53,708 nucleotides of DNA, taken from Longispora albida DSM 44784 (lineage in GTDB: Bacteria; Actinomycetota; Actinomycetes; Mycobacteriales; Micromonosporaceae). The position numbers and the translations under genes were made by a program. The first letter of the stretch is position 1, and each line of letters starts with the position of its first letter. The notes under the pieces were generated by a model. The model did not search any database, had not been told where the DNA came from, and saw only the letters and a list, made by a program, of their open reading frames with translations. The stretch covers positions 1 through 53,708 of the forward strand of contig NZ_KB903839.1 in assembly GCF_000379825.1 (NCBI RefSeq). Direction: 5' to 3'. This document shows positions 8,760-38,954 of the stretch, piece by piece.

Positions 8760-9471
8760 TGAGACTTCTGGTCAATACAGCGGGCGCTTCGGCCAGTGAC
8801 GGCCCATACCAGGTGAGATGCCGACCAGAAACGAAAGAGGACGGTAAAGCCGGAAAGGCCTCCGGTCCGTCCGCCGGGCTGAACGCATAGGGCTCGTCGG
8901 GAAAGACCAGGAGATCCGGTCGCAGGCCAGCCGTCTCGGCCACACCCATTTTCGGGTACCGTCCAGAGTGGACCACGGTCACGCCCAGCCGCGCCAGCAC
9001 ATCGGCGGCGAAGGTGTCGTCGCCGAGCCACATCCACGGCTTCTTCCAGATCGGCACGGCGGCCCGCAGATCCAGGTGAGTCGGGTTCTCCCACGCGGCG
9101 CGGGCCTCCTGGAGCCAGGCAGGGTCCGGGTCGCCGAGCAGCGCGCAGATCTCGGCCAGGTGGCCGAGCGCTGCGGCCACCGTCCGGGGGAATCCGACGT
9201 GGACGGTCAGCCCGGCCGCGCGCAGCGCCTCGACGTCCTCCTTGCGGTTCTCCTCCTGGTTGGCCAGGACGAGATCGGGAGCCAGCCGGATCACCGCCTC
9301 GACGTCCGGCCACTTCGTGCCGCCGACGCGCTGGACGTCGAGGCCCTCGGGGTGGGTACAGAAATCCGTGGCGCCCACCAGCACCCCGGGTGCGGTGGCC
9401 GCCACGGCTTCCGTCAGCGACGGGACGAGCGAGACGATCCTGCTAAACGTCTGTGACACGTACTCCAGCAT
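8749..9471 (-). CDS. Helical-backbone metal-receptor protein (BtuF-like, cobalamin-binding type)
   Basis: 240 residues with the two-lobe layout of periplasmic-binding fold III. Seen: RIVSLVPSLTEAVAATAPGVLVGATDFCTHPEG at the start, then VGGTKWPDVEAVIRLAPDLVLANQEENRKEDVEAL, which is the BtuF/FhuD signature, and RPDLLVFPDEPYAFS in lobe two. Odd: it has no signal peptide or lipobox, so it should stay in the cytoplasm unless secreted by another route. No permease or ATPase gene is near. Known: similar soluble actinobacterial proteins are annotated as cobalamin-binding. It overlaps npdG by up to 29 nt; a GTG at 9459 would shorten this. Confidence 0.8.
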   Translation of the reverse strand: MLEYVSQTFSRIVSLVPSLTEAVAATAPGVLVGATDFCTHPEGLDVQRVGGTKWPDVEAVIRLAPDLVLANQEENRKEDVEALRAAGLTVHVGFPRTVAAALGHLAEICALLGDPDPAWLQEARAAWENPTHLDLRAAVPIWKKPWMWLGDDTFAADVLARLGVTVVHSGRYPKMGVAETAGLRPDLLVFPDEPYAFSPADGPEAFPALPSSFVSGRHLTWYGPSLAEAPAVLTRSLIAL

Positions 9472-36500: not shown

Positions 36501-37421
36501 CCTTGCGTCCAAAGCCTGCTTGTAGAGGCGGCCTGCCCGGTAGCTCGACCGGACCAGCGGGCCGGACATGACGCCGGAGAAACCCAGCTCCTCGGCCTCG
36601 GCCTGGAGCTCGATGAACTCCTCCGGCTTCACCCACCGGCTGACCGGGTGGTGCTTCGGCGACGGCCGCAGGTACTGCGTGATGGTGATCAGCTCGCAGC
36701 CGGCGTCCACCAGGTCCTTGAGCGCCTGGGAGACCTCCTCGCGCTCCTCGCCCATCCCGAGGATGAAGTTGGACTTGGTGACCAGCCCGGCCTCGCGGGC
36801 CCTGGTGATCACCTCGAGGGAGCGCTCGTACCGGAAGGCCGGCCGGATCCGCTTGAAGATCCTGGGCACGGTCTCGACGTTGTGCGCGAGCACCTCCGGA
36901 CGGCTGTCGAACACCTCGGCCAGCTGCTCGGGCTTCGCGTTGAAGTCGGGGATGAGCAGCTCGACACCGCAGCCCGGCACGAGCTGGTGGATCTGGCGCA
37001 CCGTCTCCGCGTACAGCCAGGCGCCGCCGTCGGGCAGGTCGTCGCGGGCCACGCCGGTGATGGTCGCGTACTTCAGCTCCATCTGGGCGACGGACTCGGC
37101 GACCCTGCGGGGCTCGTCGGCGTCGAAGTCGGCTGGCTTGCCGGTGTCGATCTGGCAGAAGTCACAGCGCCGGGTGCACTGGTCGCCACCGATCAGGAAG
37201 GTGGCTTCGCGGTCTTCCCAGCATTCGTAGATGTTGGGACAGCCGGCCTCCTGGCACACGGTGTGCAGGCCCTCGCGCGTGACGAGGTTGCGAATCTGGG
37301 TGTACTCAGGACCCATCTTCGCTTTGATCTTGATCCAGGGGGGCTTGCGCTCGATCGGGGTCTCGGCGTTACGGGCCTCGACCCTCAGCAGGCGTCGTCC
37401 CTCAGGGCTCACCACGGTCAC
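36492..37421 (-). CDS. lipA: Lipoyl synthase
   Basis: Radical-SAM enzyme inserting two sulfurs into octanoyl groups of lipoyl domains. Seen: the auxiliary cluster motif [16 protein letters not shown] (C-x4-C-x5-C), the radical SAM motif CTRRCDFC (C-x3-C-x2-C), and RSSYRAG near the C-terminus. 309 residues from GTG 37421, which matches the actinobacterial start; the longer frame adds 19 basic residues. Odd: its last codons and TGA lie inside the right arm of repeat copy D. lipB is 2.7 kb away, separated by aspS2 and fic, though the two are normally adjacent. Confidence 0.97.
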
Positions 37422-37497
37422 GCTCGACAGCCTACGCCCGGCGGAACCCCGTCTGAACAGCGCTGTAACCGGGCTCACCAGCGCGTGTCATATGTCC

Positions 37498-37528
37498 TTG
37501 ACAACACTCGGCGTCCGTTCGTTACTCT
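37498..37528 (+). promoter_or_regulatory. Candidate promoter of the aspS2 T-box transcript
   Basis: TTGACA (37498-37503) is a perfect -35 element; TACTCT (37523-37528) fits TAnnnT with 19-nt spacing, or TTACTC with 18. Transcription would begin near 37535, right at the base of Stem I. Confidence 0.6.
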
Positions 37529-37534
37529 CTGTTC

Positions 37535-37688
37535 GACAGGGTGCCAGCGCCTGACGAACGCCTCTGGCCCTGCCGTCCGGCTCACGACACGAGCCGCCGA
37601 GGCTGGCGTCACGCCGGCGAAGGTGTGGTGGCACCGCGACAGGCCCCATCGCCCACACCTCCGGGGAGTAGTTCCCACAGGAGGTGTC
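37535..37688 (+). promoter_or_regulatory. T-box riboswitch (class II, translational) controlling aspS2
   Basis: Stem I: CAGG-GCCAG (37537-37547, GT bulge) with CTGGCCCTG (37564-37572), loop 37548-37563 containing GAC (37553-37555, Asp) and AAC (37557-37559, Asn). Then CGGCTC/GAGCCG (37578-37583/37591-37596) and GCTGGC/GCCGGC (37602-37607/37613-37618). Core T-box GGTGGCACCGCG (37627-37638). Antisequestrator: GGTGTGG (37622-37628) with CCACACC (37653-37659), bulge TGGCACC, then GCG with CGC (37650-37652). Sequestrator: ACACCTCC (37655-37662) with the ribosome site GGAGGTGT (37680-37687). The two helices are exclusive. Bulge TGGC pairs tRNA 3' GCCA, matching the G73 of tRNA-Asp and tRNA-Asn. Confidence 0.9.
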
Positions 37689-38954
37689 ATGAAACGCGTA
37701 CTCAGTTCGGAACTCGCCGCCCACGTCGGCGAGAGAGTGCAGATCGCCGGCTGGGCGCATCGCCGCCGGCTACTGAAAACAGTCGCTTTCCTGATCGTGC
37801 GCGACCGGGCCGGCCTGGCCCAGGTGGTCGTGCCGTCGGCGGCGGAGCTCGAGGGATTCGGCGAGGAGACCGTGGTCTCCGTGACCGGCACGGTGACGGC
37901 CAACCCTCAGGCTCCGGGCGGTGTCGAGCTGACCAGCCCCGTCGTCGAACTGCTCGGCGAGCCGGTGCGCGAGCTGCCGGTCGAGCTGCACCGGCCGGAG
38001 TTGTCGGCGACTCTGCCGACGCTCCTCGACCACGCGTTCGTCACGCTGCGTCACAGTACGCGCAAACCTGTTTTTGAACTTTCGGCGGCGGCGATCCGCG
38101 GTTTCCGGGCCGTGCTCGACGCGCAGGGCTTCACGGAGGTCTGCACGCCGAAGATCGTCGAGGCGGCCACCGAGTCCGGCGCGAGCGTTTTCGGCGTCGA
38201 CTACTTCGGGCGTAAGGCGTATCTCGCGCAGTCACCGCAGTTCTACAAGCAGGCGATGGTCGGGGTCTTCGAGCGGGTGTACGAGATCGGGCCGGTGTTC
38301 CGGGCCGAGCCGCACGACACGTCGCGGCACCTGGCCGAGTACGTGTCCCTCGACGTCGAGCTGGGCTTCATCGAGAACCACCACGACGTGATGCGGGTGC
38401 TCCGCGACGTCGTCGCCGGCATGGTCGCCGAAACCGCACCGGCTGCCGCCAAGCTCGGGATCGAGCTGCCAGCCGTACCGGCCGAGATCCCGGTCGTGCA
38501 CTTCGCCGAGGCGCTGAAGATCGCTGGCGCGGACCCGGCGGAGAAGGACCTCGCCCCGGCCGACGAGCGGGCGGTGGCGGAGTGGGCGCGGGCGGAACAC
38601 GGCTCGGAGTTCGTGTACGTCGAGGGGTACCCGACCCTCGAACGCGCCTTCTACACCCACCCCGAGCCGGGCCATGCCCCGTACTCCCGGGGCTTCGACC
38701 TGCTGTTCCGCGGGCTGGAGCTGGTGAGCGGGGCGCAGCGGCTGCACCGGTACACCGACTATGTGGCCACGCTCGCCGAGCGGGGGCTGCCGATCGGCCC
38801 GTACGAGAGCTACCTCGACGTGTTCCGGCACGGGGTGCCGCCGCACGGCGGGTTCGCGATCGGGCTGGAGCGGTTCGTCATGCAGCTCATCGGAGCCGGC
38901 AACATCCGCGAGGTCACGCTGTTCCCCCGAGACCTGCACCGCCTGACGCCGTAG
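37689..38954 (+). CDS. aspS2: Archaeal-type aspartyl-tRNA synthetase (probably aspartate-tRNA(Asn) ligase)
   Basis: Class II synthetase of 421 residues. Seen: an N-terminal OB-fold (1-95, VQIAGWAHRRRLLKTVAFLIVRDRAG), motif 2 VFRAEPHDTSRHLAEYVSLDVE (about 198-219), and motif 3 GGFAIGLERFVMQLIGAGNIREVTLFPRD near the C-terminus. It lacks the GAD insertion of the roughly 590-residue bacterial AspRS, so it is the short archaeal type, which is often non-discriminating and can load Asp on tRNA-Asn. A housekeeping AspRS should exist elsewhere. Its expression should follow tRNA charging through the T-box leader. It and fic separate lipA from lipB. Confidence 0.9.
   Translation: MKRVLSSELAAHVGERVQIAGWAHRRRLLKTVAFLIVRDRAGLAQVVVPSAAELEGFGEETVVSVTGTVTANPQAPGGVELTSPVVELLGEPVRELPVELHRPELSATLPTLLDHAFVTLRHSTRKPVFELSAAAIRGFRAVLDAQGFTEVCTPKIVEAATESGASVFGVDYFGRKAYLAQSPQFYKQAMVGVFERVYEIGPVFRAEPHDTSRHLAEYVSLDVELGFIENHHDVMRVLRDVVAGMVAETAPAAAKLGIELPAVPAEIPVVHFAEALKIAGADPAEKDLAPADERAVAEWARAEHGSEFVYVEGYPTLERAFYTHPEPGHAPYSRGFDLLFRGLELVSGAQRLHRYTDYVATLAERGLPIGPYESYLDVFRHGVPPHGGFAIGLERFVMQLIGAGNIREVTLFPRDLHRLTP

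Follow-up and report, generated by a model that had tools for sequence, protein, structure and literature searches.

The leaders closest to the one analyzed here are the class II T-boxes of actinobacterial ileS genes, which include forms with an ultrashort Stem I. They share with it a UGGNACC bulge, an antisequestrator that competes with a sequestrator of the Shine-Dalgarno sequence, and a specifier in the apical loop of Stem I, and they differ from it in the gene, the tRNA and the specifier (ATC, against GAC here). In the accessible part of a 2005 survey (PMC1262725), candidate T-boxes in Actinobacteria are reported at ileS only, and in that of a 2008 study (PMC2494555) one of the three aspS genes of Clostridium acetobutylicum is under T-box control. 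The same organism has a T-box with two codons, for Asn and Glu, both of which were reported to bind (Saad 2013, through PMC4052509 and PMC4206432, as far as their accessible text goes). According to the portion of PMC7583486 available to us, transcriptional T-boxes generally need a long Stem I with an elbow-binding motif. Where Stem I is truncated, an S-turn Stem II has been stated in print to be essential, and the accessible text of PMC10651847 describes the S-turn as critical in an ileS T-box. Glycyl T-boxes without a Stem II also exist. The open-access papers searched yielded no description of a T-box on an actinobacterial aspS2, and this agrees with the preliminary description of the DNA, to which none of this form on aspS2 was known. 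The TBDB article (PMC7778990), in its accessible part, reports a scan of Actinobacteria that used a class II model, and aspS2 leaders of this kind may thus be catalogued there already.

The leader occupies positions 37537-37687 on the plus strand of the window, by which we mean the whole 53,708-nucleotide stretch of Longispora albida DNA that was analyzed. It lies 5' of aspS2, a gene for an archaeal-type aspartyl-tRNA synthetase (AspRS). Its features are as follows.

37498-37503 and 37523-37528, plus strand: possible promoter hexamers TTGACA and TACTCT with a spacer of 19, from the sequence
37537-37572, plus strand: ultrashort Stem I, with GCG (37547-37549) and CGC (37559-37561) around a 9-nt loop
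37553-37555, plus strand: GAC, the specifier codon for Asp, within the loop CCTGACGAA (37550-37558) that caps Stem I
37557-37559, plus strand: AAC triplet, a proposed second specifier starting 4 bases after the start of GAC; unconserved
37578-37596, plus strand: hairpin CGGCTC/GAGCCG with loop ACGACAC, from the predicted fold; occupies the place of Stem IIA/B
37602-37618, plus strand: Stem III hairpin GCTGGCG/CGCCGGC, from pair counts and fold (z -2.39)
37622-37628 and 37653-37659, plus strand: antisequestrator arms GGTGTGG and CCACACC, from sequence and pair counts
37627-37638, plus strand: T-box core GGTGGCACCGCG, from the sequence
37629-37635, plus strand: T-box bulge TGGCACC, its TGGC complementary to G73-CCA of tRNA-Asp
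37636-37638 and 37650-37652, plus strand: inner antisequestrator helix GCG/CGC, flanking the bulge
37655-37662 and 37680-37687, plus strand: sequestrator of 8 bp, ACACCTCC with GGAGGTGT, covering the Shine-Dalgarno GGAGG (37680-37684)
37689-38954, plus strand: aspS2, encoding an archaeal-type AspRS of 421 aa; its family model carries the name aspartate--tRNA(Asn) ligase

The core, antisequestrator, bulge, competing 8-bp helix and short Stem I that had been claimed for this locus are all present in the sequence. Outside the closing GCG/CGC helix, Stem I contains further bulged helices, CCA/TGG among them. The sequestrator and the antisequestrator share one strand, which makes them mutually exclusive. 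Taken singly, several of the parts are unremarkable. The motif GGTGGNACCG occurs three times in the window where 1.42 are expected, which is close to chance, and the stability of the leader as a whole (z -1.27) and of Stem I by itself (z -0.24) is ordinary; the sequestrator hairpin is more stable than its shuffles (z -3.18). The case therefore rests on the arrangement of the parts and on its conservation. The conservation of this predicted arrangement in relatives is far more than chance would give.

Family models identify the downstream protein. AspS2 matches NCBIfam PRK05159 with 519.7 bits (cut-off 353) and stays below the cut-off of TIGR00458 (347.5 against 368.4); its Pfam domains are tRNA-synt_2 (the class II catalytic domain) and an OB-fold only, with no GAD domain listed. 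Non-discriminating charging by AspS2 is predicted from the names of these family models. The genome has a second AspRS-like gene (C13:99642-101258), which on the evidence of two matching pieces and a 688-aa frame is taken as the bacterial-type housekeeping aspS. Seven exact matches to the core occur in the genome, one being the leader itself and one lying before ileS; none of the seven is near the C13 gene. GatB is present, and nothing in the genome exceeds the family cut-off for AsnRS. The tRNA-Asp (GTC) has G73; the tRNA-Asn (GTT) has G73 together with U1-A72, the pair required by bacterial GatCAB according to the accessible text of PMC4206432. The same text records an extra AspRS in another 15 genera, 10 of which have no AsnRS (mainly Actinomycetales). 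With GatB present and no AsnRS above cut-off, charging of tRNA-Asn would also depend on AspRS, so a sensor reading GAC only would report failure of both. A Fic/DOC family gene (PF02661; 39020-40162, plus strand) is found directly 3' of aspS2. Matches in the open-access literature for a second AspRS as a means of self-resistance looked unrelated, judging by their listing.

The leader is widely conserved upstream of aspS2. Among 80 named relatives, GGTGGNACC is found within 400 nt upstream of the gene in 77 (76 with TGGC and one with TGGT); the core is degenerate in one (L062), and two (L033 and L057) have no T-box core within 400 nt, possibly through loss or a wrongly placed start. In the family to which the window belongs, probably Micromonosporaceae given that L008 (Actinocatenispora) shares its leader with one of the family genomes, AspS2 (E <= 1e-100) is encoded in 284 of 354 genomes, and the core was present in all 43 upstream regions examined (29/29 and 14/14), which represent the best-scoring and some other listed matches of the 284. 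A model built from 15 ultrashort leaders (R1) matched 10 of 148 genomes in a class-wide search at E <= 0.001 under stricter filters. Besides the window itself, six of these matches were counted (L133, L134, L136, L137, L138 and L140); those left out have a degenerate core (L135) or a leader near the contig start (L139), both with aspS2 downstream, or no AspS2 match (L141). A weak R1 match elsewhere in the window (9249-9382, minus strand; 16.1 bits, E 0.026) is probably due to chance. The leaders with a core that were classified thus number 128: the window, 78 of the 80 relatives, the 29 and 14 from the family and the six class-wide matches, with some strains probably represented twice (L008, from Actinocatenispora, with L111, and L018 with L153). 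Thirty-one have an ultrashort Stem I and 96 a long Stem I, and one (L126) is unclassified; the downstream gene is aspS2 in 127 cases and, for L134, a bacterial-type aspS.

Both alternative helices are supported by pair counts in A2, the alignment of the 15 ultrashort leaders that was used for the structure tests. In the antisequestrator 96.3% of cells are paired, compared with 41.6-52.8% for slid structures, and 22 cells are altered on both sides where shuffled alignments average 6.9 and none of 500 reaches that number. Six pairs show a two-sided change (3.5 in shuffles; 5/500 as high), and additional pair types are no more numerous than in shuffles (11 and 10.7; 283/500). In the sequestrator 90.0% of cells are paired (38.8-52.2% when slid). 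The six inner pairs hold in every one of the 15 rows, one of them with covariation, and of the two outer pairs one is lost in 4 rows and the other in 12. Stem III is paired in 97.6% of cells, with two pairs altered on both sides. The Stem I hairpin is paired in 86.4% and covaries, one pair being A-U in six of the 15 relatives and G-C in six, another G-C in 12, A-U in two and C-G in one. Given the A2 sequences, RNAalifold returned a local hairpin (GGTGT/GCACC) and the sequestrator with no antisequestrator, and a covariation term of -0.83; since it chose the local hairpin, counts of pairs in the named structures were used instead. Two Promicromonospora leaders (L074 and L080) bear on this choice. 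In both, the local hairpin is broken by an A-A mismatch and the antisequestrator is intact, and the base common to antisequestrator and sequestrator changes in step with both of its partners, so both folds appear to be maintained by selection.

The pattern extends beyond A2. With G-U pairs allowed and the best place taken within a 42-nt stretch, all 128 leaders that have a core show complementarity between the two 7-nt arms of the antisequestrator, in several versions (GGTGTGG/CCACACC in 73, AGTGCGG/CCGCACT in 42, GGTGTGG/CCGCACC in five, GGAGTGG/CCGCTCC in two, plus others). A second genome of the same genus, whose AspS2 is 83% identical to that of the window, supplies a close comparison: its leader, L103, has a sequestrator identical to that of the window and, read by eye, compensatory changes in Stem III and at two pairs of the 37578-37596 hairpin (GGCTC/GAGCC in the window, GGTCC/GGACC in L103). 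Among the long-Stem-I leaders, the pairing found for the Shine-Dalgarno sequence is 5 bp or less in 61 of 96, so their output step may differ; in those of Nonomuraea and Streptosporangium (L015 and L072, for example) just 4-5 bp were found. Sequence and comparison together demonstrate the predicted parts of the leader, its two mutually exclusive helices, their conservation and a GAC in the loop. Alignment of orthologous leaders was also where the preliminary description had placed part of the risk to its proposal, and there the core, the bulge and the sequestrator pairing proved to be conserved; the finding survives.

The link to the T-box family as curated in Rfam is indirect. The T-box model RF00230, which represents class I, does not match the leader in the window, nor L103 even at E 10. 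Three aspS2 orthologues with a long Stem I align over the full model, and the two leaders that remain unmatched lack that long Stem I. In a search of five loci at a relaxed threshold, RF00230 came out as the top Rfam model for these three leaders, over model positions 1-219, with 64.0 bits in Kribbella (E 5.8e-12), 59.0 in Nonomuraea and 54.1 in a genome of the window's family; the E values range from 5.8e-12 to 2e-9 and all three scores fall under the curated cut-off. The leader of the genome's own ileS gene (27.1 bits, E 0.019) is under the cut-off as well, so the negative result on the window carries little weight. Indeed, none of the 17 loci tried, that ileS leader included, reaches the gathering score of 93 bits, which means that the curated cut-off misses them all. 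R1 in turn finds the long leaders (87.6 bits in Kribbella; 13.4 for the own ileS leader). The chain from the window through R1 and a long orthologue to RF00230 identifies the leader as a T-box. Conservation and pairing support the assignment made in the preliminary description, a class II (translational) T-box with an ultrashort Stem I and a terminal-loop specifier on the gene for an archaeal-type AspRS.

The sequence around the start codon bears on the mode of output. A majority of annotated T-boxes work on transcription, according to the accessible part of PMC7583486, and control by transcription termination instead of translation has to be weighed for this leader too. No terminator-like site was found in 37400-37760, however, and the competing helix covers a Shine-Dalgarno sequence that ends 4 nt 5' of the start codon; we regard termination as highly unlikely here, and favor control of translation. 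For 37602-37700 the predicted minimum is the sequestrator fold at -47.6 kcal/mol, and forcing the antisequestrator gives -36.7 kcal/mol, which is consistent with a switch that is OFF by default. From the possible promoter, transcription would begin near 37535, just where Stem I starts, and both of its hexamers are identical in the second genome of the genus. A consensus promoter scan with spacers of 16-18 found none at the leader, and of the elements claimed earlier the promoter is the only weak one.

We consider it very likely that this is a genuine translational T-box, which would sense tRNA-Asp and switch on a backup aspS2 when that tRNA is uncharged. That the tRNA binds, which way the leader switches and that AspS2 acts as a backup are steps that we infer. 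With tRNA-Asp charged, or with none bound, the leader would adopt the sequestrator fold, in which ACACCUCC pairs with GGAGGUGU, the Shine-Dalgarno sequence is hidden and AspS2 output is low. A build-up of uncharged tRNA-Asp(GUC) would lead to two contacts, one between the anticodon and the GAC of the Stem I loop, the other between the G73-CCA end and the UGGC of the bulge. The bound tRNA would then stabilize GGUGUGG/CCACACC, removing the anti-Shine-Dalgarno strand and allowing ribosomes to start.

The specifier is uniform across the leaders. Each of the 15 A2 rows has TGAC, each of the 31 ultrashort leaders has GAC in its loop, and the long leaders carry GAAGAC; since GAC and TGAC served to recognize the leader classes, this uniformity is in part built in. 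An exceptional locus provides evidence of another kind. L134 (G480, contig C2, 289136-289292, minus strand; R1 99.9 bits, E 1e-21) comes from another family, and a bacterial-type aspS (PRK00476, 655.9 bits, cut-off 443) begins 124 nt downstream of its core. This genome is without AspS2, the best AspS2-like match being the same downstream aspS at 34% identity. That the same type of leader precedes two types of AspRS points to tRNA-Asp, and ties the switch to AspRS instead of to a single gene family. The Stem I loop of L134, CGTGACGAC, has GAC twice, as does that of L080.

The preliminary description had read the loop as carrying overlapping GAC and AAC codons and had suggested sensing of both tRNA-Asp and tRNA-Asn. 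The two-codon T-box of Clostridium acetobutylicum, known to us from part of the articles describing it (PMC4052509 among them), sets a precedent for such a device; it has in common with this locus a link to tRNA-dependent amino acid formation and two overlapping codons that are visible in the sequence. Here AAC is indeed present at 37557-37559, and in L103 it lies wholly inside the loop (ACTGACAAC). Both tRNAs have G73 and, without AsnRS, both would depend on AspRS. In the window, however, the closing helix CGC begins with the C of AAC, so the reading of two codons in the loop holds for the presence of the triplets but not for the position of that base. AAC occurs between -8 and +10 of GAC in 10 of the 31 ultrashort leaders, at offset 3 in six and offset 4 in four, and is absent from the other 21 and from 95 of the 96 long-Stem-I leaders. 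The register differs even within the genus (offset 4 in the window, 3 in L103), and a purine-rich loop closed by G-C pairs would easily yield AAC. Poor conservation and the two registers speak against AAC as a selected second codon, which sets this leader apart from the Clostridium T-box, and dual sensing seems to us most improbable.

The bulge does not separate the two tRNAs either. TGGC in the window matches the discriminator G73 of the genome's own tRNA-Asp, which was part of the earlier argument; since both tRNAs of the genome have G73 the match is real but non-discriminating, and it does not hold throughout, as the bulge is TGGC in 118 of 127 leaders (L126 was not counted) and TGGT in nine (L103, L104, L105, L107, L117, L130, L144, L148 and L051). 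tRNA-Asp has G73 in all nine genomes examined, seven of which have TGGT leaders, and a U-G wobble would be needed there. We retain a leader that very probably reads GAC and would respond to tRNA-Asp.

The leader in the window looks doubly reduced, with an ultrashort Stem I and no recognizable S-turn Stem II. The long Stem I with an elbow-binding motif, which the aspS2 leaders of Kribbella appear to have, is missing. Stem II was sought as a GAA...A(R)TR internal loop with a flanking helix, in keeping with the RF00230 consensus, whose Stem II contains GAA and AGUA; among shuffled regions 4.4% (113/2560) also give a match, and some real S-turns are missed. By this rule neither the window nor L103 has a recognizable S-turn between Stem I and Stem III. 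It is positive in 68 of the 96 long leaders, in the own ileS leader and in two of the 31 ultrashort ones (L104 and L105); two more (L106 and L107) have an S-turn Stem II by eye only, leaving 27 ultrashort leaders without. The spacing agrees. Specifier and bulge are 76 nt apart in the window and 75 nt in L103, about one Stem II shorter than in L104-L107 (121-135 nt) and in the own ileS leader (125 nt). That ileS leader (L005; G000:C20:544576-544587, minus strand) has an ultrashort Stem I of its own, CCGG-CCATCA-CCGG. From the absence of the motif and the short length, the window may lack a functional Stem II, like the glycyl T-boxes without one, or it may carry a divergent S-turn.

Reduction of this kind could also mean that the leader is a T-box by descent that has lost tRNA sensing in the window's genus and is now a fixed low-expression leader. 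The unrecognizable S-turn Stem II would fit such a history, as would the loop of the IIA/B-like hairpin, which deviates from the CCGTCA of many relatives. L103, however, keeps GAC, both alternative helices, the bulge (as TGGT), Stem III and the sequestrator, with compensatory changes elsewhere, and we judge a loss of sensing highly improbable. A T-box that still senses tRNA-Asp remains our preferred reading.

Stem I and Stem II appear to vary separately among the aspS2 leaders. Of the 28 long leaders without an S-turn match, the stretch is short (54-70 nt) in 18 and longer in 10. The Kribbella leaders present the reverse of the L104-L107 combination: their Stem I is long, the stretch measures 59-70 nt and no Stem II was found. 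One gene thus appears to show all four combinations of long or ultrashort Stem I with or without an S-turn Stem II. In a tree of 62 of 110 AspS2 proteins (22 with ultrashort leaders, being all with a protein available, 38 hand-chosen with long leaders and two without a leader), the window and L103 form one group (97, starred), which is joined by L104-L107 (91, not starred), all of them ultrashort, and the distribution of long and ultrashort Stem I needs three changes. We see about even chances that the AspRS leaders of actinobacteria form a natural series of independent losses of two anticodon-side modules, the S-turn Stem II and the elbow-binding long Stem I, and that the window and up to 26 more ultrashort leaders are doubly reduced, decoding tRNA-Asp by hardly more than a hairpin loop of about nine bases and a contact with the acceptor end. 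If this is true, current models of translational T-boxes would predict binding too weak for the doubly reduced leaders, and a working one would call into question the need for Stem II as a substitute for a truncated Stem I. A single gene with natural variants of Stem I and Stem II would make the minimum for tRNA recognition measurable by comparison.

Our analysis extends translational T-boxes from ileS to the gene for a second AspRS in several actinobacterial families, and suggests how a duplicate AspRS may stay off until it is needed.
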